A DNA stretch of 64,000 bases, from the NCBI GenBank assembly GCA_037893245.1, contig JBAIAA010000900.1:558001-622000 (forward strand), given 5' to 3'. This DNA comes from Crossaster papposus (Eukaryota > Echinodermata > Asteroidea > Velatida > Solasteridae). The position numbers and the translations under genes are program-made. Below, piece by piece: positions 1,287 to 31,200 of this stretch (position 1 is the stretch's first letter; each line of letters starts with the position of its first letter). The notes beneath the pieces were generated by a model that saw nothing but the letters and a program-made list of their open reading frames with translations, ran no database searches and was not told where the DNA came from.

Positions 1287-4200
1287 CTGTTTAACAAAAA
1301 CAAAACAGGAAATAATCACTGTATGGTTGGTTAATAACAAGCGATTCTTTGGATTGCGAGTGTCGCCATTTCTCGCAGTAGATTCCTATGTGTTTTGTAT
1401 TCTTAAAAAAGCCAAATTTTATGCATTTGTAATTGATGACCTCAAATGACTCTAAAATGACCTTGCTGTGCACAACCAAAAGTACTATATCATTAGCAAC
1501 CAAAGTACTATACCCGTGGCGCGGTATTTGTGTGCAGATGCATGCTGGTGTGTGTGTTAAGCATAGTGCCAGCACTAAAGAGCTGGGTTTGAACATTCAG
1601 TAAAGGGGTGGTTTGGGAAAGACCAAATACATTTTCAGTAATTTCATATTGAAATAGAAGTTCATTTTGAAATAGAAGTTCATATCAACTGTATTAAGAT
1701 TTAAATAATGTAACAATTTTAAAATCAAGCAGAATCTGTGGGCGATGTGTTATAAAACAAATATTGACTGCTTTACCTCGTGGTGTGTTCAAACTAGCCT
1801 CCCTCTGTGAATCATGGAGCATTCCATTTTTCCAAAGCGAAGCCGAGGCTAGTTTTATTACACCACTTGAAACAGTAAATATTTTAAGAGTTCAGACTCA
1901 AAAGCCACTTCCACAAAAAATGATTTTATTGATATCAAGTTAAAGCTCACAGTGCCTAGTATACGATTATTCAAATATTTGTTGCTGACGTTTAACGGCT
2001 TTTGCACCTGAACTCATCATTTGGAAACTAGAACTCACTGAGCTAAGACGTTGAATCTCATGGCTATGTCAGCTAGGCATTCCCATTGCTGCTCATAATA
2101 CAGCATCTCTAGCACTCTAAGCACCATACGTCGCATCCAACGAGAATCAGCCGTGCTGAGGTCATCCAGAGGGTTCTCAAACTTCAGACTGGCCCCGCCC
2201 TTCTCGTCTGAGACGGAGCCCACCCAGCTGTTGACCAGGATAGGCGGCTGCTTCTTAGACTTCTGTGAGAAATTTGTTTGTGCTTTTGAAAGAGATCACG
2301 CTATGGCTGAGATGTCAGGCATTTGGAATTGTTGTGATTTAGAATAATTGAATTGAATACCTGCAACACAACCTGTGATTTGTGAAATTTCCCGCTGTAC
2401 AAAACAATGCTTTCCTTTGTTAAAGGGACAGTATAACCTTGTGCAACTATCCACAAAGTAACAAAACAAATGATTGTTCCTAAGCTTACTTGATGTAAAG
2501 ACATAAATGACTCTAAACTCCCTGTCTGGCATGCCGTCTTTTTGAAGATTTTTGTTTGTTTTTAAAGTCCAACAAATCTTCTCAGAGATGCATTTTTTGA
2601 AATGTCCATTAGTAGTTGGTTCAAAACCAAAGTTTAAGAATATTATTTTCTCTAAATATACAGCATTCACAGAACTATAACCTTATTGGATTGGCCCATA
2701 AAACAATTGTTACAGCAACTTTGTGAAACAGGAAATAAGTTTGCCAATCAAGGTTCAAGAATCATCAACTAAGGGTAATCAAAACCTTGTTCTCAAGAGA
2801 CCTGCGAACAATGTTCTTGGTTTGCCGATTACGGACGCCCAAATGTGTGTGGCATTCATGTAGGCAAACATTCAAGATGGCAGCCCCGAATTTAAACTCA
2901 ATGGAAAGAAAATAAAATACATAATTTTACGAAAATAATTTACATCCCAAAAAAGCAATAAAAATGTATAAAGATAAATCCACTTCTATGATCACGGACA
3001 ATTTTTTCTTTCTTAATTATTACTGCTCCTGCACTGAATGACTGCCTCCAATTTTATGCAAAAAATTAATTCAAGTTTTGGAGGGGCCTAATAAATCAGT
3101 CATCTTTGTTCTTGACGTTCTTTATCTACTTTCCACTGAGCGGGAAGTGAATATCCTGTTAGTTCTTATTATTCGGAACCATGTTCACGTGTTCATTCAA
3201 CAGGAGGACGGGGTTTCGTTTATGCCCCGAGATTCAAGGGTAAAACCGAGATTTTCCTGCATACCTTCTGTACTGCCTCTGCCTGGTTCTGCAGACATAC
3301 CATCATGTCCAACAGACAGTCCACAGCAATGTAGAAGGGTCTCCACACCACGGCCCTAAGGGCCTCAACAGACAGAAGGCCGTTAGTGTGACCGCTGGCA
3401 AAAGTGTGGAGCAAGGCGGTGTGGGCACAGTTCCAGAGAGCTCGGCTGGCGTTCTGTAAGAGGGTCCAATGACTGCCACGGTGTGCCAAGACCTAGGAGA
3501 CGAGAAACAAAATAAGGTGAAGGTTGAGCAAGATGTGGAGCAAGGCGGTGTGGGCGCAGTTCCACAGAGCTTGACTGGCATTCTGTAAGAGTGTCCAATG
3601 ACTGCCACGGTGTGCTAAGACCTAGGAGACGAGAGACAAAATAGAGTGATGGTTGAGCAAGGTGTGAAGCAAGGCGGTGTGGGCGCAGTTCCACAGAGCT
3701 CGGCTGGCGTTCTGTAAGAGGGTCCAATGACTGCCACGGTGTGCTAAGACCTGGAAGACGAGAGACAAAATTGAGTGATGGTTGAGCAAGGTGTGGAGCA
3801 AGGCGGTGTGGGCGCAGTTCCACAGAGCTCGACTGGAGTTCTGTAAGAGGGTCCAATGACTGCCACGGTGTGCTAAGACCTGGGAGACGAGAGACAAAAT
3901 AGGGTGAAGGTTGAGCAAGGTGTGGAGCAAGGCGGTGTGGGCGCAGTTCCACAGAGCTCGGCTGGCGTTCTGTAAGAGGGTCCAATGACTGCCACGGTGT
4001 GCTAAGACCTGGGAGAAGATAGACAAAATAAGGTGAAGGTTGAGCAAGATGTGGAGCAAGGCGGTGTGGGCGCAGTTCCACAGAGCTTGACTGGCGTTCT
4101 GTAAGAGGGTCCAATGACTGCCACGGTGTGCTAAGACCTGGGAGAAGAGAGACAAAATAAGGTGAAGATTGAGCAAGATGTGGAGCAAGGCGGTGTGGGC

Positions 4201-7200
4201 GCAGTTCCACAGAGCTTGACTGGCGTTCTGTAAGAGGGTCCAATGACTGCCACGGTGTGCTAAGACCTGGGAGAAGAGAGACAAAATAAGGTGAAGGTTG
4301 AGCAAGATGTGGAGCAAGGCGGTGTGGGCGCAGTTCCACAGAGCTTGACTGGCGTTCTGTAAGAGGGTCCAATGACTGCCACGGTGTGCTAAGACCTAGG
4401 AGAAGAAAGACAAAATAGAGTGATGGTTGAGCAAGGTGTGGAGCAAGGCGGTGTGGGCGCAGTTCCACAGAGCTCGACTGGAGTTCTGTAAGAGGGTCCA
4501 ATGACTGCCACGGTGTGCTAAGACCTAGGAGACGAGAGACAAAATAGGGTGAAGGTTGAGCAAGGTGTGGAGCAAGGCGGTGTGGGCGCAGTTCCACAAA
4601 GCTCGGCTGGCATTCTGTAAGAGTGTCCAATGACTGCCACGGTGTGCTAAGACCTAGGAGAAGAAAGACAAAATAGAGTGATGGTTGAGCAAGGTGTGGA
4701 GCAAGGCGGTGTGGGCGCAGTTCCACAGAGCTCGACTTGAGTTCTGTAAGAGGGTCCAATGGCTGCCACGGTGTGCTAAGACCTGGGAGAAGAAAGACAA
4801 AATAGAGTGATGGTTGAGCAAGGTGTGGATCAAGGCGGTGTGGATCAAGGCGGTGTGGGGGCAGTTCCAGTGAGCTTGGCTGGCATTCTGTAAGAAGGTC
4901 CAATGACTGCCACGACGTGCTAAGACCTGGAAGACGAGACAAAATAAGGTATAGGTTGAGCAAGATGCGGAGCGGCGCAGTTCCAAGAATTTTGGCTGGC
5001 ATTCTGTAAGAGGGTCCAATGACTGCCACGGTGTGCTAAGACCACAAATGTATATTACTTTGCAAATCATTGTTGTAGCAAATATCTGCTCAGTAACAAC
5101 TAAATCAATGTTGACTAGTTCCAGAGTAATGCCTGGTCTAAATTAAGTAGCTATGGCTTGAAATCACACACATGCTAATACAGCTAATGCTAATGCTAAT
5201 GCAGCTAATGCTAATGCTAATGCAGCTAATGCCAATGCAGCTAATGCAGCTGCAGCTGCATTAGCTGCAGCTGCATTAGCTGCAGCTGCATTAGCTGCAG
5301 CTAATGCAGCTGCAGCTAATGCAGCTGCAGCTAATGCAGCTGCAGCTAATGCAGCTGCAGCTAATGCAGCTGCAGCTAATGCAGCTGCAGCTAATGCAGC
5401 TGCAGCTAATGCAGCCACAGCCACTTCTCATAGACCTGTGTGTAATTTCAAGCCACAGCCAAGTAATTCAGACACAGCCTTACAAAGGAAAGAATGCTTT
5501 GTTAAAAAAACAATATACCTTTAGCAGCTATCTAAAAAGTAACCAAACAAAATACTGTTGGAAAGCTTACTTGTTGTAAAGATATTAATGATTCTAAACT
5601 CCCTGAAATATCCCATCTGGCATGCTGTCATTTTGAAAACAATAACAAAAGAATGTCATTTCCCAAAATGAGTCTGCGCAAAAGTGTTCGAACAACACGC
5701 GGCGCACGCGATAGCATTACTACCTGTCTGTTCAGTGTCGACACGTGAGTAGCTGCAATTCACTGGCTGAGAACACACCCTGAACGCAGATTATGATCGC
5801 ATTTAAAATTGTGACTTAGCAAATTTTGTATTAAAATTAAAATCATCGAATCTTGTTTTCTCAAAATATGCAGCACTCACAGAGCTAAAAACTTGTTCAG
5901 GTGTTACATTTCTTTATATTTTAAGCACTGTTCCTGCTTCAAACGATAAAAATGTACAATCGACAAATGTTATATACACCAGTATGCCATGCCCACCATA
6001 GCAACGGCCTAGCAATGTCACGCGTGCCTGGCCGGCACAGTATATTACATCCAAGTACGTAACATCTTTGGCTTTAAAAAATGGCCCCAAAACTACCACC
6101 ACTAACTCTAGTTGTGTTCCATCCTTAACTAATCTCTTGGCAGTACCGTTGCAGTACTACTGTGCTGAAACCCTGGCAGTGTGTAAAACTGTTATGAACA
6201 ATATGCAATAAGATTTCATCTTTTAGAGTAGAGGGACCAACAAGTATCCAAGAAAAAATATTTGAAAGCCTGTCAACATTATCCAGACCAAAACAGACAC
6301 CAAGAGCCACTGACCACTGCTTTCTTGAGGTGGTCAAATGTCTTCTTCAAGCTGTCCACAGTAGCCTGTGTGGTGATGCCAGCGTAGTCACCACGGTGCT
6401 GAGGGGCTTTGGTGGTTGGTTTCTCACTATCGTAGGAACGGTAAGTCCTCATGGTATCTGAGTCTTTGTCGTCTGGGGGTGGGGGTACCACCGGCACTGG
6501 TTTACCTATAAAAAGAAGAAGAAGAAAACCTCAAAACGTCACAACTAATAGGCAGAAACATCAGTTTAGTTTGATTTCCTAACTGTGGATGTGGATGTAT
6601 CAATTGTTGTTGTAATAGTATACAAATATTGACTGCTTCAAGTGATGTAATAAAACCACTCGAGATAAAGCAGTCAATATTTGTTTTTTAATACCTCATG
6701 CACAGATTATGCTTGATTCTAATTTTTTAAGCTAATTTCATTCTAGATTCGCCAGAGTTGAAATGTGTTAAACTTTTGCAAATTCGCAGGGGACAAACTC
6801 CCCGTGACGTCACAAATTTGCGTTTGCGATCACTTTTGCGCCGATTATGAACCAATTTGTACACTTACCCACAGTGACCAGCGCAGCCACCTCTATCGCC
6901 GATGGCTGCACCTTACACTCATCTCTCGGATCCATCTGCTGTAGCTAAGCGATGACGGGGTCGTTGATGGACGGCCTAGTCTTATCTGAGTATGAACCAA
7001 TTTGTACACTTACCCACAGTGACCAGCGCAGCCACCTCTATTGCCGATGGCTGCACCTTACACTCATCCCTCGGATCCATCTGTTGTAGCTGAGCGATGA
7101 CGGGATCGTTGATGGATGGCCTCGTCTCATCCTGTCTGGTAGCTGCTCGAGAAGGCCCTCCGTCCCAGCCAACGACTAGGGTCCCGGCCGTCTCAAACGT

Positions 7201-10200
7201 GAACCACTCGTTATCCAAGTAAGACGATCTAAAAAACAGAGAGAAATTGTAGGCATCTATGGAAAGATCTAAAGGGCCAATTTTATGGAGCTGCTAAGCA
7301 CAAACAATTGCTGAGCATATAATTCTTTCTTGGCAAAAACAGGGTTACAGACAAAATGTCCAAGTGAATTATATTGTATATGATCTCTTTTAATATTGTA
7401 TGCTTTGTCAGTTGTGCATTTGTCGTTCGAATCAGCAAGTGTTCTCCAAATCTAATGAATGGTTCTTGACAACAAACCTGAGAAAATTTCCCAAACTTCG
7501 TCACTGAGATGCATTTTTTTACTTCTTTTATTATTTTCTTCCAAAAGACAGCGTGCCAAAAGGAATAATTTCACAGGGAGTCTAGACTAGAGTTTGGTTA
7601 CTTTTTGAATAGTTGTAAATCTATACTGTCTCTCTAAGAACTGCTATTTACCTGTAAATGTCTCCGGCAGCCGGACCCATCAACTTGTCTCTCTTCTCAA
7701 TTTTGTTCAGGAACTGAGCAAAGTGGCACAAGCCTTGAAGAATGTTCAACTGCAAGGACAACAGGGAAAGATGCTAGAGTAAGATTACGTCTCATCAAGA
7801 GTTGTGTTCGAGTCCCTGCAAGTCCCTGCAAATTATCACAGGTCCTTCAGTCTCAAATCAAGTCACTAGCTATTAAATGAATTGTTAACAAAAGCATTCA
7901 TTTGTCATTGTTCAACCAGTTACCTGCAACTGGCTTTATGAAAGGACTTGGGACTGGACTTGCAGGGACTCGAATACAACTCTGTTATTTTGACAGTTTT
8001 CACAAGTGGACATGACAGGTCTTAAGCTGTGTTCGCACTGGACATTTTTTTGGGAAGGATTTACTGAGACGATGGTAAAATAAAAAATGGTGAAATGTTA
8101 CCACTGTTCGAAATTGGACTTTCGACACGGGAAAATTTTACCGAGACCGCGGGAGAAGTAGCCGAGCTGTCATTATAATGCCTCATGAAGGCGAATGTGA
8201 TCACAATGCGATGTGCATGCATCAGCGCGCGCACGTAAACAATGCAAAGAGCGCATGCGCGGTGTCTTATGTAGCATGAAATCACACTAGGGGGCCGGAT
8301 TTACGTTTTCCTAAGCCGCTTTTACCGACTCGCACTGTTCGCACTGGACTTATCGTCTTGGGAAAAGTTACCTGGGAAGTTTTCCCGGGCAGCAGTTGGC
8401 CGGTAAAAGTAACCACTGGACTCGGAAAAAGTAACTGAGAGGAAAACGTCCTAGGCTGTCCGCACTGGACTTAAAATGGGAAAAGTACCTACCGTCTCGA
8501 TAAGTTTTATCAAAAAAAGTCCAGTGCCAACAGGGCTATAGCTTTCTTTAAACCTGCCCCCTCATCATACCTGGGTTCTCCAAGGAATCTCGTCAGCACA
8601 GATCTTTCTCAGTCGTTGCTTCTTCTTCTGGGTGTGGTAGAACTCCGGCAGGATCTGCTCCAACTTCTCAAAGGCCTGTCATCAAAACAACGACAAACAT
8701 GAAGTAGATTTGAAATTTTTTAGGATTGACTTTTTTTTATACAGCAAGCCAAGTTACTGGCTTGAATTGCAGCTGTTTGGCTAGAAAGTGCAGCTCTGTT
8801 TGTGGATTCAAACGCTGACAGGGAACACAGCGCTTGTGTTCTTGGGTAAGGCACTTTACTACAATTACGTCTCTTCATCAAAAAGTACATACCTTCAAGA
8901 GTAGAGATTGAGCTGCTAAAGAAAGGCAGGTGTAATAATAGTAAAGCACTTTGAGATATTGGAATGAACTGCGATAATACGAACTGTGACATTTGTTTAC
9001 ATAGGAAATAAATCACTCAGGTGGGACTCGAACCCACGACCTCCTGCGTTCTAGTCCAGTCCAGACATCTTACCACTCAACCACCAAGCTACATGAAGCT
9101 CATGTAAATTCATGACATTTTAAGATTTACCAAAAAAGGTACGATTTTGAATTTTTCACAACCTAAAAATGAACGTTAAAATTCTTAGTATTCAAATTTA
9201 TAGTAGCAAAATCTTTATTAAAATAATTAGGTCACATATTGAACCTAATCCCATTTAAAATTTTCTTTTTTGGTAAAATTACAAATTGCACTAGGGTCTA
9301 TTTTATTCTTTTCATTTTGTCCTTGTCGTCAGCTTGGCGTTGTCTGCTGCAGAAAAACAAGCGTCGTATGCGAGGAAATCGTGTTCACATGCTGCTATGA
9401 AATTAATAAGTGCCCGTTGAAGCAGTTTGGACGTGAACATATGTAAGCTTGGGTCGGCTGGCTGGTAGGAATCTGAATAGCAGCGGGTACCACAACCAAA
9501 TGTTTCATAAGATGAATTTTGCGTCAGGGTAATAAAAATTCACTATTGCGTTTTGCCCTTCCCCAATGTATTTTATAAACACTGTATACTCAGTATTTCC
9601 CCAAGAAATTATGCGAAAAATGTACTTAGATGGGACTCGGACCCACGACCTCCTTGTAATAATACTTCCGCGATATCAGAATGCCACAGTGCACTTCACT
9701 ACCGATAATTCTAACTAATAAAAGCAATCAGTTCTGTAGTCTAAGAATTGAGACTTTCTGGAGTATTTATTTGCTCTGACCTGAAGCTCCTTGTGCTCCT
9801 GTTGTGCCTTGGCAGCATCCGACATCTTAACTTGATTAGATCTAAGATGGACCAGCAGCTGCAGTTTCTTCTTCTTCCGACGAGGGCTCTTAGTGTCTTG
9901 GGGCTCTTGCTGGTTTTTGTTGGAGGGTACCTGTAAGGTGGTCGGCTTGTTCTGTCCAAAAGACAACAAGTTACAGGGAAATAAGAGTACACTCAAATCC
10001 AAAAAGGGGAAAGATTCAGAGATGTGTGCATATTTATACCCGTTTCGGACTAGCATTCTGGAATTGGGCAAAACCAACCGAGCAAATACTTGATTTGAAT
10101 AAACCCTTTATCACTTGTATTAAATTGTATTCCATTGTATTTACTCCTTAATAAAATGATAAAGTGCTTAGCCAGTTTTGGGGCAGTTGAGGAATAACAG

Positions 10201-13200
10201 GCAGGGCGGTTTTGGGCAGTTTTAGGCGGTTAATAGGTTAACATGAAACTCTTGATGTTTAAAAAAGATTATGGAGCAACTAGATGAAAGATCAACAATT
10301 GAAGTTATTCAAAATGACTCTAGAGTCTATACAATGCGTTAAGTTTGCCTGCTCCTGAAACATTTGTTTAAGGATGACTTAAGATGACTTAAGATGAATA
10401 TCCAGGTAAAATGTGCAAACCTGAATAAATGAGAAAGATGAAGTCAGTCACAATTTCAATCACACGTCAAATCACAAAAAGAATGGAGGATTAACAATAA
10501 TTTCTTTGTCACAGTTCATTGAATAAGTTTGTCTCTTTGTTTGAGACTGGATGTCTTGTGACTGGATGTATTGTGACTGGATATCTTGTGACTGACTTGC
10601 GATAGACTTCTCATGACTTGTGTGAGGATTTTGCAGCCTGCATCTTCTATTCTAAATAGGAAGAATTGCCACTTGTTGTCAGTATTACCTTTGTGTATTC
10701 AATGACGGCAGCAGCGTATTTCTTAGGGTCATCTCCTGCTACTGTCACACCACCTGGCTGTTTAGACAGAGTGGCCTTGACTGCTGAGAGTTGCTCATTG
10801 CGTCTAAGACAAAACAAAATGACAGCTGTACTTAGTGGGGTGGGGAAGGTGGGTTAGGATTGGGATAGAGGTGGGGTGCATGAGATTGGGGTGGGGTGGA
10901 GGGGGTAGGGGTGGAGGGGGTAGGGGTGGAAGGGGTATGGGTGGGGTAGAGAGGGCAGGGGTGGGGTAGAGAGGGTGGGGTAGAGAGGGTAGGGGTAGAG
11001 AGGGTAGGGGTAGAGAGGGTAGGGGTGGAGAGGGTAGTGGTGGAGAGGGTAGGGGTGGAGAGGGTAGGGGTGAAGAGGGTGGGGGTAGGGGTTGGGTGGG
11101 TAGGGGTTGGGTGGGTAGGGGTTAGGAGGGTAGGGGTTAGGAGTGGGGAGGGTAGGGGTGGGGAGAGTAGGGGTGGGGAGGATAGGGGTGGGGAGGATAG
11201 GGGTGGGGAGGATAGGGGTAGGGAGGGTAGGGATAGGGGTGAGAAGGGTAGGGGTGGGAAGGGTAGGGGGTGGGAAGGGTAGGGCTTGGGAGGGTAGGGC
11301 TGGGCATGGTAGTGGTGGGGGTGGGAGGGGTGGGTGGGGGTGGGGGTAAGGGGGTGGGAATGGTAGGGGTGGGCATGGTAGGGGTGAGGGTGGAGGATAT
11401 GGGTGGGGTAGGGTTTGAGGTCCTCACCTGATAAGCCACTGTGTGGAATCTTCACACCATTCAATGGCTGTGTCAACCAATCCTTCACTCAATGCTTTCT
11501 GCACCACCTGAACCACAAACTCAAGGAATCGAGCACGACGGCGAAACTTGACAACTACAACGGAAACAGAAATGGGAAGAAAAAAAATTACGGTTTAATG
11601 TGGACCTTAAATTCTACATTTAGAATCCTGTCTGTCCTTTTAGATTCTCAGTAGCAATAAATGTTTCACAGTGCTTTCAAGGAGAGACAAAAAAACACAC
11701 CAAAAAAAATTAGTAATCGGATAACCAACTTTAGAAAGAAAACCTGCATTTTTTTACTCTACCCAAGCTAGGTCACAAGAAAAGTGTTTCTTGTTTGCAA
11801 ACCTAGTTAATATTTGTAATAAATATATTCCTAAATTGTATCAATTGAATTTACATGAGAGGTGTGGTATATTCAATCATTGCTCTTTGATATCGTTATA
11901 TTGCTAACGTTTGTCAAATGTTACCTTCTTTGTATGCATATCTGCTGGGCAAGGCTGCAATGAAGGCATGTAGGATGTTAGGATCCTCAGACCCAGTCAA
12001 TTCATCGGCATTGTGAGCTGTTTGAAAAGTGGAATAACATCTTGAAATATTTATATTAAACACAGGCATACAAAAGTAGGACAAAATTAAGTAGCACTTT
12101 GAAAGGCAAAACAGGATACAAGTCAGACTATTGCAGGCTTTCAGAAGTAATTAGCCTGGTTGATGCTCACCCATGTCCACAGCAGCGATAAGCCTCATTT
12201 GACATGTTCTGTACTCACAACACTTGTGCTCCATCCTCAACTAAGCTCTAGGAAGTACAGTTGCAGTACTCCTGCACCCAAGCCCTTTATTGTGCGATTT
12301 ACATATGCAAAATATTTAATGAAATTATAAAATGGAGGGAAAAGTAGAACATTTTAATAAAAAAACAAGGAACAAGGTAAAAAAAGGAATTAGCAAACAT
12401 GTAGGAACAGTAGGAATACTGGAAAACTTGAGCAGGGTTCAAATGACAAGTTTCAGTGCCAAAGTGTTTTCGCACAATGTTGCGTGGTTTCACTTTAGAA
12501 TTACCTGTTAATTGTGGCCCATGTATCACCCATTAGTTTAAAGTCTTCTAGCAGATAACGTTGTTAATGTTGTTTGGTTTCACTTTAGAATTACCTGCTA
12601 ATTGTGGCCCATGGATCACCCATTACTTCAATGTCTTCTAGCAGATCACGTACCTAGTTTAGCCCATGGATCACCCATTACTTCAATGTCTCCTAGCAGA
12701 TAACGTACCTAGTTTAGCCCATGGATCACCCATTACTTCAATGTCTCCTAGCAGATAACGTACCTAGTTTAGCCCATGGATCACCCATTACTTCATTGTC
12801 TCCTAGCAGATAACGTACCTAGTTTAGCCCATGGATCACCCATTACTTCAATGTCTCCTAGCAGATAACGTACCTAGTTTAGCCCATGGATCACCCATTA
12901 CTTCAATGTCTCCTAGCAGATAACGTACCTAGTTTAGCCCATGGATCACCCATTACCTCATTGTCTCCTAGCAGATAACGTACCTAGTTTAGACAGTTTC
13001 AGCATGTGTGCCTCTAGTGCCCTTAACTCCTCATTCTTCGTGCCTTCTACATTGTAGATGGTCTGACCGAATCGACGCGGTCGTTTCTTCTTGGCCACGA
13101 CGGCCCCTGCTTGCCCTGTCCCGCCGTCCACATCTTCAATGAAATCAATGGCGTCGGCCTTCCCCTTATGCTCAGACTCCTATAAAAGAAAAAGACGAAA

Positions 13201-16200
13201 ATATTTAAGATTTCTTTTAGAATTCAGGGACAAATCCTAGAGAAATTGAGAGAAAATTACAACACTTTTTGGGTCCCAGTACATTTTTAATGTGCTTATT
13301 TTGCTTCCTGCCTGCAGGCTTATTTAATGAATTTTTATTTTTTTATTTAATGAATGTCTTAGCAAACTTGTTTATTACGACAGACCTTTTCAATGGCCAG
13401 CATTTTCTTGCCGGTGTCAGTGACATGATTAGCCAGTCCTTTCTGCTTCCATACACGTAACACCTTGGCCATGTGGTAGGTGATGACGGCTATCATGTGA
13501 TGGAGACTGTCTGAGACTGACTGTTGGCGACGCTGGCGTAGACTGACCGGTAACTCTAGCAAGATGGCGTAGCAGTGGGTAAGCACCTGAACAAAGAGCA
13601 ATCAAAAACACTGGTGTTGGACTTGCATGACAAAGTTGAGCAATAGTTTCAGACAAGAAAACTTCACAAATTAAATTTCAATTTGAATAACCAAATGGAG
13701 TTAATTGAACCAGTCAGGTACCTTTCATTTGTTTGGAGCAGTTCAACTGATTGCAATATTTTGGTTTGGTATGATCTGCCACTATTGATGTTGCTGAAGT
13801 AATAGCTCAAAAGTGTAGTCCAGTCTGTCACAAATCTGTCACAAATCTATCACACAAGTATTCACAAGTCAATCACAAGCCATCCACTACCAAGTCAAGT
13901 CACAAGCTATTCAAATGAAATTAGACATACATGTGTAACTGAAGGCATACCTATGTTGTACATGAAGACTTTAGGCACCAAAGCTGCTAAATGCCAGCAA
14001 AATAATATTTGATTATTGTATACTAGGCACTCAGAGCTTTCACTTAATATCGTTATTTCATTTTCCAAGGAAGTGGCGTTTAGCAGTTTTTGCGCATTAA
14101 GTCTTCAAATGGATCTCCATTTTTATTTTGAACTTGTGAATTTGACTCAATTGTGGCCTAGCTTGTGATGTACTCTGGGACTGACCTGTATGACTGGTGT
14201 TGACGGTATCTTGTAGTGAATGATGGGAGCCAGTAGTCCATAGCACTGCACCACAGCCTGCAGGGCTAGGTTAGATTCATTCAACCAACCTGCTAACTCC
14301 ATGGCTACCAACATGCGCTCACACTCAGCTAAACGCTGAAGCTAGCAAAGACAGATGTACAAAAACAAACATTAGTAGTGAATGATGGGAGCCAGTAGTC
14401 CATAGCACTGCACCACAGCCTGCAGGGCTAGGTTAGATTCATTCAACCAACCTGCTAACTCCATGGCTACCAACATGTGCTCACACTCAGCTAAACGCTG
14501 AAGCTAGCAAAGACAGATGTACAAAAACAAACGTTAGTAGTGAATGATGGGAGCCAGTAGTCCATAGCACTGCACCACAGCCTGGAGGGCTAGGTTAGAT
14601 TCATTCAACCAACCTGCTAACTCCATGGCTACCAACATGCGCTCACACTCAGCTAAACGCTGAAGCTAGTAAAGACAGATGTACAAAAACAAACGTTAGT
14701 AGTGAATGATGGGAGCCAGTAGTCCATAGCACTGCACCACAGCCTGCAGGGCTAGGTTAGATTCATTCAACCAACCTGCTAACTCCATGGCTACCAACAT
14801 GCGCTCACACTCAGCTAAACGCTGAAGCTAGTAAAGACAGATGTACAAAAACAAACGTTAGTAGTGAATGATAGGAGCCAGTAGTCCATAGCACTGCACC
14901 ACAGCCTGGAGGGCTAGGTTAGATTCATTCAACCAACCTGCTAACTCCATGGCTACCAACATGCGCTCACACTCAGCTAAACGCTGAAGCTAGCAAAGAC
15001 AGATGTACAAAAACAAACGTTAGTAGTGAATGATAGGAGCCAGTAGTCCATAGCACTGCACCACGGCCTGGAGGGCTAGGTTAGATTCATTCAACCAACC
15101 TGCTAACTCCATGGCTACCAACATGCGCTCACACTCAGCTAAACGCTGAAGCTAGTAAAGACAGATGTACAAAAACAAACGTTAGTAGTGAATGATGGGA
15201 GCCAGTAGTCCATAGCACTGCACCACGGCCTGCAGGGCTAGGTTAGATTCATTCAACCAACCTGCTAACTCCATGGCTACCAACATGCGCTCACACTCAG
15301 CTAAACGCTGAAGCTAGCAAAGACAGATGTACAAAAACAAACGTTAGTAGTGAATGATAGGAGCCAGTAGTCCATAGCACTGCACCACAGCCTGGAGGGC
15401 TAGGTTAGATTCATTCAACCAACCTGCTAACTCCATGGCTACCAACATGCGCTCACACTCAGCTAAACGCTGAAGCTAGTAAAGACAGATGTACAAAAAC
15501 AAACGTTAGTAGTGAATGATAGGAGCCAGTAGTCCATAGCACTGCACCACGGCCTGCAGGGCTAGGTTAGATTCATTCAACCAACCTGCTAACTCCATGG
15601 CTACCAACATGCGCTCACACTCAGCTAAACGCTGAAGCTAGTAAAGACAGATGTACAAAAACAAACGTTAGTAGTGAATGATGGGAGCCAGTAGTCCATA
15701 GCACTGCACCACGGCCTGCAGGGCTAGGTTAGATTCATTCAACCAACCTGCTAACTCCATGGCTACCAACATGCGCTCACACTCAGCTAAACGCTGAAGC
15801 TAGCAAAGACAGATGTACAAAAACAAACGTTAGTAGTGAATGATGGGAGCCAGTAGTCCATAGCACTGCACCACGGCCTGCAGGGCTAGGTTAGATTCAT
15901 TCAACCAACCTGATAACTCCATGGCTACCAACATGCACTCACACTCAGCTAAACGCTGAAGCTAGCAAAGACAGATGTACAAAAACAAACGTTAGTAGTG
16001 AATGATGGGAGCCAGTAGTCCATAGCACTGCACCACGGCCTGCAGGGCTAGGTTAGATTCATTCAACCAACCTGCTAACTCCATGGCTACCAACATGCGC
16101 TCACACTCAGCTAAACGCTGAAGCTAGCAAAGACAGATGTACAAAAACAAACGTTAGTAGTGAATGATAGGAGCCAGTAGTCTATAGCACTGCACCACAG

Positions 16201-19200
16201 CCTACAGGGCTAGGTTAGATTCATTCAACCAACCTGCTAACTCCATGGCTACCAACATGCGCTCACACTCAGCTAAACGCTGAAGCTAGTAAAGACAGAT
16301 GTACAAAAACAAACGTTAGTAGTGAATGATAGGAGCCAGTAGTCCATAGCACTGCACCACAGCCTGCAGGGCTAGGTTAGATTCATTCAACCAACCTGCT
16401 AACTCCATGGCTACCAACATGCGCTCACACTCAGCTAAACGCTGAAGCTAGTAAAGACAGATGTACAAAAACAAACGTTAGTAGTGAATGATAGGAGCCA
16501 GTAGTCCATAGCACTGCACCACAGCCTGGAGGGCTAGGTTAGATTCATTCAACCAACTTGCTAACTCCATGGCTACCAACATGCGCTCACACTCAGCTAA
16601 ACGCTGAAGCTAGCAAAGACAGATGTACAAAAACAAACGTTAGTAGTGAATGATGGGAGCCAGTAGTCCATAGCACTGCACCACGGCCTGCAGGGCTAGG
16701 TTAGATTCATTCAACCAACCTGCTAACTCCATGGCTACCAACATGCGCTCACACTCAGCTAAACGCTGAAGCTAGCAAAGACAGATGTACAAAAACAAAC
16801 GTTAGTAGTGAATGATAGGAGCCAGTAGTCCATAGCACTGCACCACAGCCTGCAGGGCTAGGTTAGATTCATTCAACCAACCTGCTAACTCCATGGCTAC
16901 CAACATGCGCTCACACTCAGCTAAACGCTGAAGCTAGCAAAGACAGATGTACAAAAACAAACGTTAGTAGTGAATGATAGGAGCCAGTAGTCCATAGCAC
17001 TGCACCACGGCCTGCAGGGCTAGGTTAGATTCATTCAACCAACCTGCTAACTCCATGGCTACCAACATGCGCTCACACTCAGCTAAACGCTGAAGCTAGC
17101 AAAGACAGATGTACAAAAACAAACGTTAGTAGTGAATGATGGGAGCCAGTAGTCCATAGCACTGCACCACGGCCTGCAGGGCTAGGTTAGATTCATTCAA
17201 CCAACCTGCTAACTCCATGGCTACCAACATGCGCTCACACTCAGCTAAACGCTGAAGCTAGCAAAGACAGATGTACAAAAACAAACGTTAGTAGTGAATG
17301 ATAGGAGCCAGTAGTCTATAGCACTGCACCACAGCCTACAGGGCTAGGTTAGATTCATTCAACCAACCTGCTAACTCCATGGCTACCAACATGCGCTCAC
17401 ACTCAGCTAAACGCTGAAGCTAGTAAAGACAGATGTACAAAAACAAACGTTAGTAGTGAATGATAGGAGCCAGTAGTCCATAGCACTGCACCACAGCCTG
17501 CAGGGCTAGGTTAGATTCATTCAACCAACCTGCTAACTCCATGGCTACCAACATGCACTCACACTCAGCTAAACGCTGAAGCTAGTAAAGACAGATGTAC
17601 AAAAACAAACGTTAGTAGTGAATGATAGGAGCCAGTAGTCCATAGCACTGCACCACGGCCTGGAGGGCTAGGTTAGATTCATTCAACCAACCTGCTAACT
17701 CCATACTTACCAAAATGCAGCTATTTATCTTTTTCACTTATTAGCATGATATAACAAAACATTTGTTGACTGCTGTGATGTGGGATATGACGTTTTTTAA
17801 CACCCTCGGGAAAGCCGAAGATGCTATGTGTCTCTACGTAATATCCCACATCACAAAGCCTCGTCACTTTTAAATTTCAGTTGACAAGGGGCCTACAAAT
17901 GAAATGGATAGGTCTATGAGGCTTTTCACTCTATTTTATTGAAAGACATCAATGAAATCCAGAGAGATTTATTTTTATATGGGTAAAACACCAACCTGTC
18001 CCTTGGAGTAGGGCCCTCTATCACAGAGTTTATCGCAGTAGATCTCTCCCTCTCTGACGCTGACATCCACGTTGATGAAGATACTGGTCAGGAACATGCG
18101 CAGCAGGACGGGTGAGGCAACGGAGCAAGTCTTAGGGTTCAGTCTTGAGAGGCAAATGATAAGACACAACGGTGATAATAAAAACATGCGCAGCAAGACG
18201 GGTGAGGCAACGAAGCAAGTCTTGGGGTTCAGTCTTGAGAGGCAAATGATAAGACACAACAGTAATAATAAAAACATGCGCAGCAAGACGGGTGAGGCAA
18301 CGGAGCAAGTCTTGGGGTTCAGTCTTGAGAGGCAAATGATAAGACACAACAGTAATAATAAAAACATGCGCAGCAGGACGGGTGAGGCAACAAAGCAAGT
18401 CTTGGGGTTCAGTCTTGAGAGGCAAATGATAAGACACAACAGTAATAATAAAAACATGCGCAGCAGGACGGGTGAGGCAACGGAGCAAGTCTTGGGGTTC
18501 AGTCTTGAGAGGCAAATGATAAGACACAACGGTAATAATAAAAACATGCGCAGCAGGACGGGTGAGGCAACGGAGCAAGTCTTGGGGTTCAGTCTTGAGA
18601 GGCAAATGATAAGACACAACGGTAATAATAAAAACATGCGCAGCAGGACGGGTGAGGCAACGGAGCAAGTCTTAGGGTTCAGTCTTGAGAGGCAAATGAT
18701 AAGACACAACAGTAATAATACAAACATGCGCAGCAGGACGGGTGAGGCAACGAAGCAAGTCTTGGGGTTCAGTCTTGAGAGGCAAATGATAAGACACAAC
18801 AGTAATAATAAAAACATGCGCAGCAGGACGGGTGAGGCAACGGAGCAAGTCTTGGGGTTCAGTCTTGAGAGGCAAATGAGAAGACGCAACGATAATAATA
18901 AAAACATGCGCAGCAAGACGGGTGAGGCAACGGAGCAAGTCTTGGGGTTCAGTCTTGAGAGGCAAATGATAAGACACAACGGTAATAATAAAAACATGCG
19001 CAGCAGGACGGGTGAGGCAACGGAGCAAGTCTTAGGGTTCAGTCTTGAGAGGCAAATGATAAGACACAACGGTAATAATAAAAACATGTGTAGCAGGACA
19101 GGTGAGGCAACGGAGCAAGTCTTAGGGTTCAGTCTTGAGAGGCAAATGATAAGACACAACGGTAATAATAAAAACATGTGTAGCAGGACAGGTGAGGCAA

Positions 19201-22200
19201 CGGAGCAAGTCTTAGGGTTCAGTCTTGAGAGGCAAATGATAAGACACAACGGTAATAATAAAAACATGCGCAGCAGGACGGGTGAGGCAACGGAGCAAGT
19301 CTTAGGGTTCAGTCTTGAGAGGCAAATGATAAGACACAACGGTAATAATAAAAACATGCGCAGCAGGACGGGTGAGGCAACGGAGCAAGTCTTAGGGTTC
19401 AGTCTTGAGAGGCAAATGATAAGACACAACGGTAATAATAAAAACATGTGTAGCAGGACAGGTGAGGCAACGGAGCAAGTCTTAGGGTTCAGTCTTGAGA
19501 GGCAAATGATAAGACACAACGGTAATAATAAAAACATGCGCAGCAGGACGGGTGAGGCAACGGAGCAAGACTTGGGGTTCAGTCTTGAGAGGCAAATGAT
19601 AAGACACAACAGTAATAATAAAAACGGTTTTATATGGCCAGCAGCTTCGAACTCCTGCTTACTTTCTGAGAGTGAGCTTAAAGTCTTCTCTAGCTGTCAC
19701 CACCTCAATGTCAGATTCCGATGGAAGGACGGGGGCTACAAACTGCTCCCAGAGTACCGTGCTAGCAGTCAGGCCGATGGGGTAACATCCCACCTGATAG
19801 GCAGTCTGTGAGGGACAAGACAAACAAGGAACTCTAGTGAAAGAATGGTACTGATTGAGTAGAACAGTCTTGAAATCTCTACAGAAAGATTAAGAGTCTC
19901 AGCCAGAGACTCCCCAGTATACCTTCAAAATGAATTGATGCAGATTTGGAGATATCCAAGTTAAATAAGTCTGAAACATTTGAAACAAGGCAACTGGACC
20001 TAGAACTGAATAGAAATTGTCACAGCCTATCTAGGTCGCTTATCTGGTTCTAATTCTTGACATCATGGAATGTAATGAAGGGGAGGGGGGGGGGGGGGGA
20101 GAGGTGGGGGGGGGGGGAGGTGGGGGGGGGAGGATGGGATGCTAGGATGGGCTTGGTTTAGACCCCTTATTTATGGACAGACCATCATACGTACCTGACT
20201 TAGAAAGGCCCACGTCATGAGGATAGACAACGGGTGAGATGCTAGGATGGGCTTCGTGGTGTTACCAATGCTGTCTCCGATAAGGGCGCCATTGGCTGTA
20301 TACGCTGCTACAGCAAAGACGTATTTCTCATTGGTTTGTAGGCCAGAGACGTGCAGCTCGCAATCGTAGGCTGGAACCTAGTGGTAAAAAAACACCAAGA
20401 GATAATCAGTTTGTATGTAATGTTTATTCCATGGATTAATAGATCAGGCGTCAATTGTATGGAACTAGGTACATGTACATAAATGTACTTAGCAAAAAAT
20501 ACACTTGCTTAACAAAAACAGGTTACCAGCCAATGTGCCATAAAGTGTATATTGCTCGTGACCGGTTCCCGGCTAACTTCTGTTTACGGCACATAAAATC
20601 TGCTTATTAATATTTGTGCTTAGCAGATCCCTGCATTATCAATTCTTTGACTGTTTATTTTAAGAATATGGATTTTGGATTACCTCTTCTCCAGTTCCTG
20701 GTAAGAAGTAATCATTCAGTCTGACCTTCACATTGCTGCCACTGGCCAGCCGACCAAACAGTCGATACCAAGCAACCTGATGGACGAAAAACATTGACAA
20801 CATTAGCAAAACATTTACCATGTCTTAGAAGAAGGTACTTTCAGCATCATCTGAAAGTGCATGTCATGGATTACTCATCTCACAAATCACAAGTCCCTCA
20901 CAAACAAATCACAAGTCCCTCACAAACAAATCACAAGTCCCTCACAAACAAATCACAAGTCCATCACAAACAAATCACAAGTCCATCACAAACAAATCAC
21001 AAGTCCATCACAAACAAATCACAAGTCCATCACAAACAAATCACAAGTCCATCACAAACAAATCACAAGCCCATCACAAACAAATCACAAGCCCATCACA
21101 AACAAATCACAAGCCCATCACAAACAAATCACAAGCCCATCACAAACAAATCACAAGTCCATCACAAACAAATCACAAGTCCATCACAAACAAATCACAA
21201 GTCAGTAAAAGATCGATAACAAATTAGATCTGAAAATATAGATATATATTTTTTTTTCTTGAATATTCAAACTGCCAAAAAGCTTTTTAAATATCCGGCT
21301 GATGATCGGATATTTAAATCTTCAGTACAGCCCAGCAGAAAGAACAATGACAAAGAAACGTCTTTCGTCACAAAGTAATTGAATAGCTCGTTATTCGTCC
21401 ATCCATATTTGAACAGGGTAAAGGCTGGTTTATACTCGGCGCGAAAGTGAACGCGAATTTGTGACATCACCGGAGTTTCTGTTCTGCAAATTCGCAAAAG
21501 TTAAACACATTTCCAATCCGGCGAACGTTTATAGCAAATGCTTTGTGACGTCAAATTCGTATCGCATCCGCTTTCGCGTGAAGTATAAACCTTCCTTAAC
21601 TCATTTGTCTCATGGTGTCAAAAGCTTAGACGGGACATGACTGACCTTTTGTGGTGGGTTGTAGAGACCAGGTCTGAAGACCATGGTGGTGTCAGTGCGG
21701 CACAGCAGCAATGGGGCCGGGGGAACTCCTGATTCCCTGATGCTAGATGTCTGGCCCTTCTGTTGTTGATTCTGTTGCTTCTGAGGAGCGTTGTAGGTAA
21801 ATAGCTTCAACTCCTGATCTTGGGCCTTGGTTAGCTGACTCACCGCATCCTGTGCAGAGAAATATTGTAGGCTTTCAAGATGAAATTGTAGAGCAAAAGT
21901 AGGATCAACATTACCACAAAAATTTGAAACTTTTGCCGGCTTTCATCTATATCATTAAGTGGTATAGACTTTTCTAAATTAAATCCCATTGGGATAACAA
22001 TAGATAAAGTACCTGTAATAATCCAGTTTGTTCAGGAGTCAGGTCACCAGACTTGGGCATCAGCAGTGTTTTCTGCATTAGAAATAGAGCCCTGGACACC
22101 AGGTTCTTATCGCAGCTGTTTAATAGCTCATCTACTGTCTCAATGTGGACGACGTGGCCGTCCGCTCTCTGCACCTACAGGGTCGGGGAAATAAATGAGG

Positions 22201-25200: not shown

Positions 25201-28200
25201 ACATATGTACCAGCTTTTGATGACTGACACACACCTTGTTAGGCTGATCAATCTTCTGTAGATACTTGCCGCTATCCGACGCACCGGTCTGGACCTTCTG
25301 AAAGACAGACTTACAACGATTCCAAAGGAACAAGGTGGCATCTACAACCATGTCTCTATCTACAGACTCCTAAAAACAATCAAATCAACACAGAGGTCTA
25401 CATATTACGTATCATCAACACAAAGGACTATATCTTTTCAATTTTGTTTACATCATTTTCAAAATAATACATTTTCTAAAATCCCACCCGATAAATCCAC
25501 ACATTTAACCTCAAACTGAACTAAACTGAACTGAAAGGGTTCAGGCCGGCATCTGTGGGTAGCACCCTGATATTTCTGGCCTCGCTCGCTGTGAGCCGGT
25601 CGCTGACAGATATTTCCTGCTTTGCTTGTGACGTGTTTATCCATCTTCGGTTTTGAATTTTGGAAAAACTTTGCGTATATACACGTCATCTGTCGCGAAC
25701 TGGTTAAGAACAGCTCATTAGTATTCCCTGTGATTTGGAATGTAAACGCTAGTTTAAGAACAATTCAAGACAAATGTTACTGAAAATATTTGTTTTTGTC
25801 CTTTGTAAATTGACAGTGTGAAACAGTCGCCCGTATAAAAAGCCAAGAGTGTAAAACAGTCCATCTGTTTTAAAGAAAGATTGAGAAAAAACAATTCCTC
25901 ACAACAAAAAAGTCTTGAAAGTAAAACAATAACAATTAAAAATTAAAATTAAAACAATAAAACAAATCCACTTTCTGTACATACTGCCATAGGATCCTTG
26001 GCACATGAGTTCAGGACCTCAGCAAGTTGCACCATTTCATCATTGAGTAGTAGGTTAGAGCGTGGTACGGGAGCTGTAACAAAGGTCAACATTATACATA
26101 ATATCACATTCAATGCTAAGAATACAATGAAGATTCACATACTAGAGTACTATAGTGCTTAATACTAAACTTCTTTTCATTGATATACTACATTTATCTC
26201 AGTGTTATCCATAATGCTTTCACTGTTGAAAACTACGCAAAGTATGCAGGGTTCCCACACATAAACATACTTCCACTACCATGAGGCAAAAACTACGCTA
26301 CCTATACCAATGAACGGAGAATCTTTCTAGAAGAAAAATGATACCAAGATATCTCAATTTGGGCTAGTAGTTTTAGCTCCAGACCATATTTTATGAGGCA
26401 CAGTCAGAGGTGTTTTTACACCAGGAAATAACTAAACCACACCCTGCAAATACAACATGACATGGATTAGTTATTTCTTGGTGTGAAATGACCTCTGATT
26501 TTGCTTTATAAAATTACTACACCTCATAAATATTTATAAGTAAATTTTTGCGCGTTCGGGAAGAAAAAATAACGTCAGGTGACGTCATCCCGGTGAGTAT
26601 TTAGCTCGCAACCATGTGGTATTCTTTTCTGCTAGCACCAAAAATTCCCTCTGGAACCCTCCTCGTAGACATGTAGTCTGTGGCAAGTAATCTTTACGGA
26701 ACCAGTCTTAGTAATGTTACTAGATTTCCACCATTGACTGAAAAAGAACTTAAATATCTTGTGCTGAATAAAGATGCAAAATCTACTAAGGCCGTTATCG
26801 ACAAGGCAGTGAATATTTACGAGGTGTAGTAAAACAAATACAGCATGGTTTATTTCTGGAAAATAGTGGGAATTACTGGTTCCTTGGTGTAGGTAGTCGA
26901 GCTGATCTACACCTTGGGACCAGTAATTCCCACTACTTCTCCTCAAACCATGCTGTATTTGTATATTACTAGCCCAAATCAGCGAGAGGCTAGTTATGCT
27001 TGTGTTCTTTGTCACAATACTGACTCTGTGAGCGTGTTTGTGAGTGGGCAGGCCCATCAGCTATGCTACTGTCCTGTCAGTGAGAGGCTGGTTATGCTTG
27101 TGTTCTTTGTCACAATACTGACTCTGTGAGTGTGTTTGTGAGTGGGCAGGCCCATCAGCTATGCTACTGTCCTGTCAGCGAGAGGCTAGTTATGCTTGTG
27201 TTCTTTGTCACAATACTGACTCTGTGAGCGTGTTTGTGAGTGGGCAGGCCCATCAGCTATGCTACTGTCCTGTCAGCGAGAGACTGTATGCTTGTGTTCT
27301 TTGTCACAATACTGACTCTGTGAGTGTGTTTGTGAGTGGGCAGGCCCATCAGCTATGCTACTGTCCTGTCAGCGAGAGACTGTATGCTTGTGTTCTTTGT
27401 CACAATACTGACTCTGTGAGCGTGTTTGTGAGTGGGCAGGCCCATCAGCTATGCTACTGTCCTGTCAGCGAGAGGCTGGTTATGCTTGTGTTCTTTGTCA
27501 CAATACTGACTCTGTGAGCGTGTTTGTGAGTGGGCAGGCCCATCAGCTATGCTACTGTTCTGTCAGCTAGAGGCTGGTTATGCTTGTGTTCTTTGTCACA
27601 ATACTGACTCTGTGAGCGTGTTTGTGAGTGGGCAGGCCCATCAGCTATGCTACTGTTCTGTCAGCGAGAGGCTGGTTATGCTCGTGTTCTTTGTCACAAT
27701 ACTGACTCTGTGAGTGTGTTTGTGAGTGGGCAGGCCCATCAGCTATGCTACTGTCCTGTCAGCGAGAGGCTGGTTATGCTTGTGTTCTTTGTCACAATAC
27801 TGACTCTGTGAGTGTGTTTGTGAGTGGGCAGGCCCATCAGCTATGCTACTGTCCTGTCAGTGAGAGGCTGGTTATGCTTGTGTTCTTTGTCACAATACTG
27901 ACTCTGTGAGCGTGTTTGTGAGTGGGCAGGCCCATCAGCTATGCTACTGTTCTGTCAGCAAGAGGCTGGTTATGCTCGTGTTCTTTGTCACAATACTGAC
28001 TCTGTGAGCGTGTTTGTGAGTGGGCAGGCTCATCAGCTATGCTACTGTCCTGTCAGTGAGAGGCTGGTTATGCTTGTGTTCTTTGTCACAATACTGACTC
28101 TGTGAGTGTGTTTGTGAGTGGGCAGGCCCATCAGCTATGCTACTGTCCTGTCAGTGAGAGGCTGGTTATGCTTGTGTTCTTTGTCACAATACTGACTCTG

Positions 28201-31200
28201 TGAGCGTGTTTGTGAGTGGGCAGGCCCATCAGCTATGCTACTGTCCTGTCAGTGAGAGGCTGGTTATGCTTGTGTTCTTTGCAACAATACTGACTCTGTG
28301 AGCGTGTTTGTGAGTGGGCAGGCCCATCAGCTATGCTACTGTCTTGTCAGTGAGAGGCTGGTTATGCTTGTGTTCTTTGTCACAATACTGACTCTGTGAG
28401 CGTGTTTGTGAGTCGGCAGGCTCATCAGCTATGCTACTGTCCTGTCAGTGAGAGGCTGGTTATGCTTGTGTTCTTTGCAACAATACTGACTCTGTGAGTG
28501 TGTTTGTGAGTGGGCAGGCCCATCAGCTATGCTACTGTCCTGTCAGTGAGAGGCTGGTTATGCTTGTGTTCTTTGTCACAATACTGACTCTGTGAGCGTG
28601 TTTGTGAGTGGGCAGGCCCATCAGCTATGCTACTGTCCTGTCAGTGAGAGGCTGGTTATGCTTGTGTTCTTTGCAACAATACTGACTCTGTGAGCGTGTT
28701 TGTGAGTGGGCAGGCCCATCAGCTATGCTACTGTCCTCAGTGTGAGAGTAAGGCTTTTTAGTCTTCCTGCTAGGGTTGAGTGGATCCATGGCCTGTAGGA
28801 TCTCCAGACTCTTGATCTCTGGTGTATAACGCTGCTCATTCTGACTCTGCGGTATGAACAAAAAATAAAAATCACAAATTTTAAAATGTAATTAGCTAGT
28901 CATTTCTTCTTTGGCCATTTTAGATAAGATTTATATTTTATGGCATGTTCATTACAGTTAAGGCATTTTTTGGTAAGTCATTGGTCTGGTAGAATTCTGT
29001 CAAATGACAAAACTTTCAGAAATCAATTTCATGGTCATAATGATTATTAAGTCCAAGTTTCTACAGTATTGTACCTTAAGCAATACTAAAACTTATATTG
29101 ATTTAAATTTTTATTTCACAAACTTCAATGAAAAACAATGAAAAACTTCAATGAAAAATCCTATAAGAAGTCCATGCCAAATATTAACGAGCACAAGTTT
29201 CAATCGGTCACATGCACAATAAATGCATTTACAGTATGAAATATGTTCAGAGAAATAGTATATCAATATCTGATGACCAACGTCAATTTCAACCTCAGCT
29301 AATTTACCATTAGAGGTTTCTCATAATTATCTTCTTTAAAATTAAACAGCTAAATCAATTCAAGGAAAAGAAATAGAACATCCAAGACAAATTGGTTTGT
29401 TTACGTATGCTTACTTTGAGGTAGTCTAGCACCGTTGTGACCAAGTTTTCATACAGTTCCCACTGCTCATAGTTGTAAGCCAACTTGACAAACTTGACCA
29501 CTGCGTTAACGGGTACACCATCCTCAGACCGGGCAGCTAGGTCCATCAGACACTTGTCTTGGGTCACTCCGGCTAGACTGACATCCGTGGCTGAGTGGGC
29601 ACCACGGGGACTGTGTCCTGCCCCTCCTAGGTAGTAAGGATTCAGATTATCTCCATAATTACAATCTCCAGACAAGTATACAGTTTGATTTGAAAGTTAC
29701 AGTATACCATTTGCTAGGCTTGTATGGATTTTTTAGTGGATTATAGGGGCCAGGGGTGAGATTGGCCCAAAATAATACATCTACAAAAAATCCAAAAGAA
29801 ATCTACAAGGACTCCAGATCAACAAACAGTTGGTATCTGCCTAAAGAAACTACCCCTTAAAATAGGTTTAATATTGGTCTATATCCACTTTAGTTTATGC
29901 TTTGGTCACTTCACTCCTTGACAATTGTCTAATTACTGGCCTCCCTGACAAAGGCGTAAATGATCTTGTAACATGTACCATCAAACACAAACATTTGCAC
30001 AGCATGTCCTTACATGCTGTGCAAAGTTTTTTAGGCCGTTTTTTAGGCCATTTTTTGTACAGGTACAAGTGCTGTTTAGACATCCATCGGCAGCCACAAT
30101 GTCATGAATTGGGCGCACGATGCGTGGTATAAATAAACAACATATGGGATTTGAGTCAGTGTGGACAAAGTTGCGACCAATTAGATAGTTCCAATTAGAA
30201 ACCCCCTCAAAATACACATACGTTTGACCCGAGTATTTAATTACATTTTTCATTATGACCTCGCTTTTATTCAACACGATGTTTAAATATATCAAGTCAA
30301 CCCTTCCTGGCAACAACTGCTCTTGTATTTGAATCACTTCTCTCCAAGACAATCCAGGTTCGAAACCGAAGTAAGACACATGGATGTTTGTAAACTAACT
30401 ATTGATTAACCTCTGTATTCCCAGAGAACAAACAAGAGAGAACAGATAAAAAAAAAGAGTTGATGAAGAGCAAATAGGGAGAAAAAGAAAGGAATGCAAA
30501 GATAACTTTAGCCGCATTCAAAAAGAGTTGTGTTCATGTACAGTAATCTTTCTGATTATAGTTACAATCTTCCCACTTGACATGTTACACTACCTGCAAT
30601 GATCTCCATGCCAGCAAAGAACAGCTCTGAGTACGTATCCAGTATATGATCCTCAGTGTCCGGGGCAGCGGGACTGCTCAGTAGCGTCCTGCGTGTACTA
30701 TCAGTCAGAGTCTCTAGGATTGCCAGGAACTGAGCCGCGCTGCCTTCAAACATGTCAGCAAGGAGTTTCTCCACGGCTGTGCGGGGCCAGGGAAGCTAAG
30801 AAAGGGCAACAATAGGGTGCTCATTGTCAGGTTTGGGGGATGAATAATGAAGAATTAATTGTGAGGGTTTTGAAAAAATGAGACAAAACTGGGCAGACGT
30901 CGAAATGAGGGTTTGTGGGTGTTAGGAAAGAGAATACAATTTGTTACATTTCAATCAGACATTCCGTTGACGAGTTATGTCTGTTTAAAGTTTGCATTTA
31001 TGGACATAAAAATAAAGAGAAAAAGGCCAACAAAGGGTCACATGATCAATTCTGTATACCATTCATAACATCAAGTTTTGTTTGCTTTGCAGAATCCCAA
31101 CTAGCATAAAAATGCTTCTTGTGACTTTCTCTACAAAAAGAAAACACCTCAAAAACAAATACAGACAATTTATTCCAAACATTTATTAGCCTTCCCACCA

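Follow-up and report, generated by a model that had tools for sequence, protein, structure and literature searches.

Amphioxus-type mirages at splice junctions in CFAP54 and a few other genes of the echinoderm Crossaster papposus

We have analysed a stretch of 64,000 nucleotides (the window) of the 1.02 Gb Crossaster papposus assembly, positions 558001-622000 of the forward strand of contig JBAIAA010000900.1 (C900), and found that the gene CFAP54, which lies on its minus strand, carries tandem arrays whose units span the boundary between an exon and an intron. Arrays of this kind are known from amphioxus as mirages, and we conclude that amphioxus-type mirages occur in an echinoderm, densely in CFAP54 and also in a few further genes; in total we count 14 junction arrays at 13 loci, distributed over four contigs and a second contig of a KIF1-like gene. 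Mirages are thereby extended to a second deuterostome phylum, the earlier literature that we found being on lancelets only. The explanation that we favour, with a probability of roughly 70%, is that the arrays are minisatellites born from tandem duplications that happened to include an exon edge, and that they have been tolerated.

Six junction-spanning arrays of CFAP54 in the window

Arrays were called with Tandem Repeats Finder (TRF); those with a unit of at least 50 bp are referred to as long-unit arrays, and copy numbers are given as assembled. Translated exons of the minus strand match PDB chain 9ijj_H in stretches over residues 399-1913 (no window exon aligned with residues 1412-1615), and to the left of the window further CFAP54 exons align with residues 1913-3104, again in stretches, some of them weak. 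Exon numbers were taken over from an earlier note on this DNA, made from the sequence alone; exon boundaries were set by a simple scoring of splice sites and are in part imprecise. A genome search returned no second haplotype of CFAP54, the gene being on one contig only, and a Pfam scan of five open reading frames gave no match.

Seven long-unit arrays are present in the window, all within CFAP54, and six of them contain a splice junction. The earlier note had described three arrays that repeat an acceptor and three that repeat a donor, in 2 to about 21 copies, and this description stands: TRF and the splice reading agree on acceptor arrays at exons 36, 25 and 24 and on donor arrays at exons 34, 27 and 12, with units of 55-162 bp in 2 to 21.6 copies, the donor of exon 12 being probable only. 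The exons at arrays 24, 25, 27 and 36 fall within stretches aligned to the CFAP54 protein and exon 12 aligns loosely; exon 34 belongs to an unaligned part and is supported by its open frame and splice sites.

Among the acceptor arrays (the exons and junction arrays given here for the window are on its minus strand), that of exon 36 (3404..5043) contains 12.7 copies of a 129 bp unit made of the 3' end of the intron and the start of the exon. Its AG is kept in 12 of 13 scored copies, the exception being the first, partial copy, and the true exon 36 (3265..3492), the translation of which (VLAHRGSHW...) aligns to CFAP54, adjoins the last acceptor, in the copy of lowest coordinate. In the exon 25 array (14213..17718, 162 bp x 21.6) each unit combines 33 nt of intron with 129 nt of exon, that is the acceptor and 129 of the 156 exon bases, leaves the donor out, and keeps the AG in all 21 scored copies (true exon 25, 14186..14341; the automatic acceptor lies 6 nt from the one read by eye). 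At exon 24 (17996..18143) the array (18093..19625) has 17.0 copies of a 90 bp unit with about 41 nt of intron and 49 nt of exon, and the coding frame is open throughout, over 494 codons, so that 30 residues per copy would be added if it were read. Both strands are in fact open over 18093-19625, for 573 and 589 codons.

The donor arrays are built in the same manner from the other end of an exon. True exon 34 (7014..7228) ends at the first donor, TGG/GTAAGT, of an array of 2.0 copies of 145 bp (6846..7131), the downstream copy of which contains an in-frame TAG (by eye). True exon 27 (12984..13179, donor TAG/GTACGT) is followed by 7.0 copies of a 55 bp unit (12607..12992), each consisting of 9 nt of exon 27, GTACGT and intron; a duplication without exon sequence (12476..12606, minus strand, 90 bp unit) adjoins this array and holds, by eye, a diverged form of the 55 bp unit. 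In the case of exon 12, the end of the exon is included in 18.0 copies of a 98 bp unit (26979..28737), and the candidate donor AGA/GTCAGT would delimit an exon at 28687..28846. Because this candidate is weak and other weak GTs precede the array, 16 and 37 nt from the start of the exon, the donor is probably, but not certainly, inside the array.

Junction arrays in the rest of CFAP54 and in other genes

To the left of the window, 30 kb were fetched, and later 2.5 kb more in a neighbouring gene. Seven long-unit arrays were called in the 30 kb. Two are donor arrays of CFAP54 (C900:554484-555594, 123 bp x 9; C900:548806-549067, 122 bp x 2.2, its exon lying in an unaligned part of the protein), and introns hold three others, with 2 copies of 88 bp, 2.9 of 99 bp and 3.9 of 111 bp. 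The 111 bp array is partly a dispersed repeat, with 1392 candidate places at first look and at least 41 matches, and the 99 bp unit was seen by eye to recur in the window, near position 12200. The neighbouring gene, on the plus strand, has an acceptor array (C900:529402-531889, 108 bp x 23) and, as the additional 2.5 kb showed, a donor array (57 bp x 10.8); in the fetched stretch of this gene, each of the two long-unit arrays thus spans a junction. PDB and Pfam searches with its protein were without match; we take it to be Spindly-like.

Other genes were surveyed by genome-wide domain searches, without fetching letters, and the 497 rows obtained were read by eye: 26 for MT (67 of 67 candidates scored), 91 for Myosin_head (65 of 228), 132 for Kinesin (122 of 243), 114 for DHC_N2 (103 of 132) and 134 for Pkinase (126 of 1099). 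A mirage comes to light in such a scan only if its copies retain sufficient conserved sequence for a match. Tandem partial exons emerged at three loci, and the fetched sequence confirmed an array at each: (i), a KIF1-like gene has a donor array with a 145 bp unit on contigs C1108 and C1238, in 3.2 copies on one and 8.3 on the other, beginning 15 nt past the likely acceptor; (ii), a KIF2C-like gene on contig C17 (within 2454901-2456400) repeats a donor in 8 copies of a 133 bp unit; and (iii), a dynein gene has an acceptor array at C5:1054049-1054381 (147 bp x 2.3). Sequence flanking the KIF1-like array is matched over nearly its full length at two places only in the genome, with 100% and 96% identity; the two contigs are therefore most likely haplotypes rather than recent duplicates, and the difference in copy number is probably a polymorphism. 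In the KIF2C-like stretch, positions 1-194 of the reverse strand hold another array, 7.5 copies of 26 bp with 100% matches; from there it is about 120 bp to the likely acceptor of the mirage-bearing exon.

Long-unit arrays were absent from five dynein loci (3 kb each, 15 kb in all), which had been picked from the 26 MT rows before their sequence was read. A random sample by contig number returned 16 of 20 stretches, nine of them dominated by satellites, and is thus a poor sample of gene space; four of the long-unit arrays in its seven other stretches were viewed by eye, and none was clearly on a junction. One array of this sample, at C1246:103229-104175 (45 bp x 21), begins about 16 nt past the likely donor of a minus-strand exon (by eye).

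Splice sites, placement and origin of the arrays

The splice sites were scored in the 14 arrays, in those copies that were close enough to the search word. The AG or GT is kept in 141 of 144 scored copies or, with 14 counted as functional, in 127 of 130 spare sites, and the spare sites lie within 0.5 of the score of the presumed-used site in nine arrays of 14. Loss of spare sites under selection was not seen in the 144 scored copies, a comparison of low power because the copies are so alike (88-98% in most arrays, some of which also hold copies of other lengths). By eye, a unit contains one splice site and never both at all 13 loci, on which ground tandem duplication of whole exons was rejected. 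When the exons are joined without the extra copies they match CFAP54; KIF1-like exons joined in this way give a single stretch of 92 residues that matches KIF1A, and the KIF2C-like exon by itself has a 66-residue match to KIF2C, up to the donor and not across the junction. Judged from these alignments, it is the reading with one copy that is conserved wherever the protein can be compared.

Could the extra junctions nevertheless be functional, serving as alternative acceptors or donors through which segments are added to the protein or splicing is regulated? The largely intact spare sites and the open frame of the exon 24 array would agree with this, as would the periods of the five acceptor arrays (129, 162, 90, 108 and 147), which are multiples of three throughout, while of the eight donor periods only two are (Fisher p = 0.02; a pattern noticed after the fact). 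However, an in-frame stop lies upstream of the true exon in every acceptor array but that of exon 24, which makes an in-frame protein function unlikely for these four of five; the six remaining donor periods do not share this divisibility by three, and the proteins compared have no matching insertions. We therefore regard a functional role as improbable.

Still less probable, in our opinion, is that the assembler added or lost copies. Most arrays show differences of several percent between their copies, and variants are common to several copies; the arrays are spread over 13 loci and several contigs, and the KIF1-like array stands on two contigs with different copy numbers. On the other side, contig C1238 ends about 108 bp past its array and, in amphioxus, the mirage of the globin gene BflGb6 was aberrant in the draft assembly and was rebuilt from traces (PMC3087553). 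In the case of amphioxus PGBD5, re-sequencing spoke against an assembly error (PMC3902484).

A remaining question is whether the arrays favour junctions. The earlier note put the exonic share of the gene at 10-15% and held that random placement would rarely hit junctions. In our test region, a 46-exon stretch of CFAP54 with the extra copies removed (placements wholly inside exons being left out), exons make up 19% and a unit of these lengths has a chance of 0.14-0.35 of landing on a junction; a single hit is therefore not rare, and the statement was too strong. There is a moderate junction excess in CFAP54: 8 of its 12 long-unit arrays are on junctions vs 3.1 expected (p = 0.003; without exon 12, 7 of 12, p = 0.016), and this is true of all six that have at least five copies (1.5 expected, p = 0.0002; without exon 12, 5 of 6, p = 0.004). 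The window by itself, where the pattern was noticed before being tested, gives 6 of 7 vs 1.8 expected (p = 0.0013; without exon 12, 5 of 7, p = 0.013), and the part of the gene to its left 2 of 5 vs 1.3 (p = 0.38). Together, the eight CFAP54 junction arrays represent 10,483 bp (each including the exon piece of its true copy) vs 42,156 bp of intron in the 46-exon stretch.

An excess of this kind might be produced by a process that starts tandem duplication at splice junctions, through R-loops, cleavage at sequences shared by junctions or co-transcriptional damage. This was one of the two causes suggested in the earlier note, and the six of six CFAP54 long-unit arrays with at least five copies (five of six without exon 12), the two of two in the neighbouring gene and the array of the random sample that begins close to a likely donor speak for it. 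On the other hand, acceptors and donors are affected alike, the 15 kb around five dynein exons are devoid of long-unit arrays, and a bias in GC content alone may yield part of the excess. Since the excess is only moderate and loses significance once the window is left, we consider junction-directed duplication unlikely as the leading cause. The second suggestion of the note, that arrays offering spare splice sites are tolerated, fits the intact state of nearly all copies and the conservation of the single-copy reading; its first, a junction-started process, is the less likely of the two.

Our preferred explanation, tolerated minisatellites, would proceed in three steps. First, a local tandem duplication would copy a block of about 55-160 bp with one splice site of an exon, the very composition that the structure of the arrays displays. 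The array would then grow or shrink by unequal exchange or replication slippage, which we infer from the likeness of the copies in most arrays and from the different copy numbers on the near-identical KIF1-like contigs. Finally, the end copy beside the rest of the exon would be chosen by exon definition and the other copies would become intron: since each unit holds one splice site, only the end copy can pair across the exon with its other splice site, and the protein would for this reason be unharmed. Arrays wholly within an exon would change the protein and be lost, so that the survivors near exons would be those that span junctions. The moderate excess over intronic arrays probably comes from GC-richer, minisatellite-prone exon edges rather than from a splicing-linked process (GC content is 0.526 in exons, 0.397 in introns and 0.44-0.54 in the eight CFAP54 junction arrays), as growth at such edges and loss of protein-changing arrays would together create an excess without a link to splicing.

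Several observations weigh against this account. The four intronic long-unit arrays have GC contents of 0.27, 0.35, 0.43 and 0.49, the last two of which resemble those of the mirages, and the GC argument is correlational only. To the left of the window the excess is, as said, not significant. Spare sites score unlike the presumed site in five arrays (lower in four, higher in one); in the KIF1-like gene on C1108, the presumed donor CAG/GTAAAA is weaker than the spares, so that position, not strength, would have to decide. Lastly, the account leaves the multiple-of-three acceptor periods unexplained.

Other repeats, side observations and comparison with known mirages

Besides the junction arrays, the window contains shorter-unit arrays between exons and off junctions, as judged from TRF and the exon list. 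The two that the earlier note reported are present, at 5172..5415 (15 bp unit) and 20882..21203 (22 bp unit); its list omits the GGGGTAGGGGTGGGA array (10888..11393, 15 bp unit, between exons and off junction), the 12476..12606 duplication beside exon 27, a G-rich array (20080-20138) and an array at 39042-39154, in the 5' part of the gene where exons are unmapped. The 15 bp array at 5172-5415, GCTAATGCAGCTGCA, is open on both strands as an alanine-rich peptide.

The genome-wide searches also brought up features of a different nature. Four pairs of contigs (C866/C984, C211/C417, C279/C414 and C566/C209) have equal or near-equal domain matches and are probably uncollapsed haplotypes. At C188:1157460-1157573, part of a dynein exon (DHC_N2 312-349) breaks the exon order, being about 2.4 kb upstream of the exon that it resembles. 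About 30 protein-kinase matches of near-equal score, in tandem long open frames mostly about 6.7 kb apart, are found at C701:218915-438348, and also on C282 and C359. Finally, C8, of more than 5.2 Mb, has COX1 genes (5208663-5210009 and 2872001-2873343) that are open under standard stops, with a 682 aa frame, and is perhaps a bacterial chromosome.

The mirages matter for practical and for mechanistic reasons. Junction arrays are hard to assemble and annotate, and they are candidates for new introns; their rows of near-identical donors or acceptors, one of which is seemingly used, are natural experiments on splice-site choice. Quite tentatively, one may go further and suppose that junction-spanning minisatellites are widespread and still active in ambulacrarian and cephalochordate genomes, being formed preferentially at exon edges and filtered by exon definition so that single-site units survive. 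If so, mirages would be natural tests of how the spliceosome chooses among up to 23 near-identical sites. The mirage of amphioxus Adh3 is reportedly subject to somatic instability.

A literature search for echinoderm mirages or the same pattern elsewhere returned nothing beyond PMC3087553, PMC3902484 and PMC2812944, subscription journals being mostly outside its coverage. No report on CFAP54 was met, in keeping with the claim of the earlier note that the pattern was undescribed in this gene; the pattern itself, however, is already known as amphioxus mirages. A looser parallel is offered by the internal tandem repeats that human segmental duplications carry at exon-intron boundaries (PMC2812944): these vary in number, can affect splicing, have units of about 30 bp on average in about four copies, and alter exons or form new introns, whereas the units here are of 55-162 bp and the exon is apparently unchanged. 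The model of Rogers, in which introns are gained by duplication of AG/GT sites (as cited in PMC3087553), likewise involves tandem copies of splice signals inside genes; unlike in that model, no new intron is seen here and existing introns are lengthened.

The closest counterparts are the mirages of amphioxus Adh3, BflGb6 and BflGb9, described in PMC3087553 as minisatellite-like tandem duplications across an intron-exon boundary, on the acceptor or the donor side, with units of 10-160 bp and many copies that keep their AG or GT. Haplotypes with six and three units are given there, and reverse-transcription PCR suggests regular splicing; further mirages are reported for PGBD5 and troponin C (PMC3902484). 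Some differences are to be noted. Regular splicing is backed by reverse-transcription PCR in amphioxus, while the echinoderm arrays are known here from genomic sequence; copy number differs between haplotypes in amphioxus, while the 3.2 vs 8.3 copies of the KIF1-like array stand on contigs that we take to be haplotypes; and the echinoderm arrays number eight in CFAP54, of which one is uncertain, and reach 23 copies in the gene next to it. That the host is an echinoderm and not a cephalochordate concerns the taxon in which mirages were found, not a structural criterion. The mitochondrial COX1 of the assembly agrees with an echinoderm: it translates well when AAA is taken as Asn, TGA as Trp and AGR as Ser, and its protein is close to that of vertebrates, whereas flatworms, which use the same code, have a far more divergent COX1. 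In structure, the arrays of Crossaster papposus are like amphioxus mirages: a tandem array within a gene, with a unit across an intron-exon boundary and an AG or GT kept in most copies, the donor of exon 12 being less certain.

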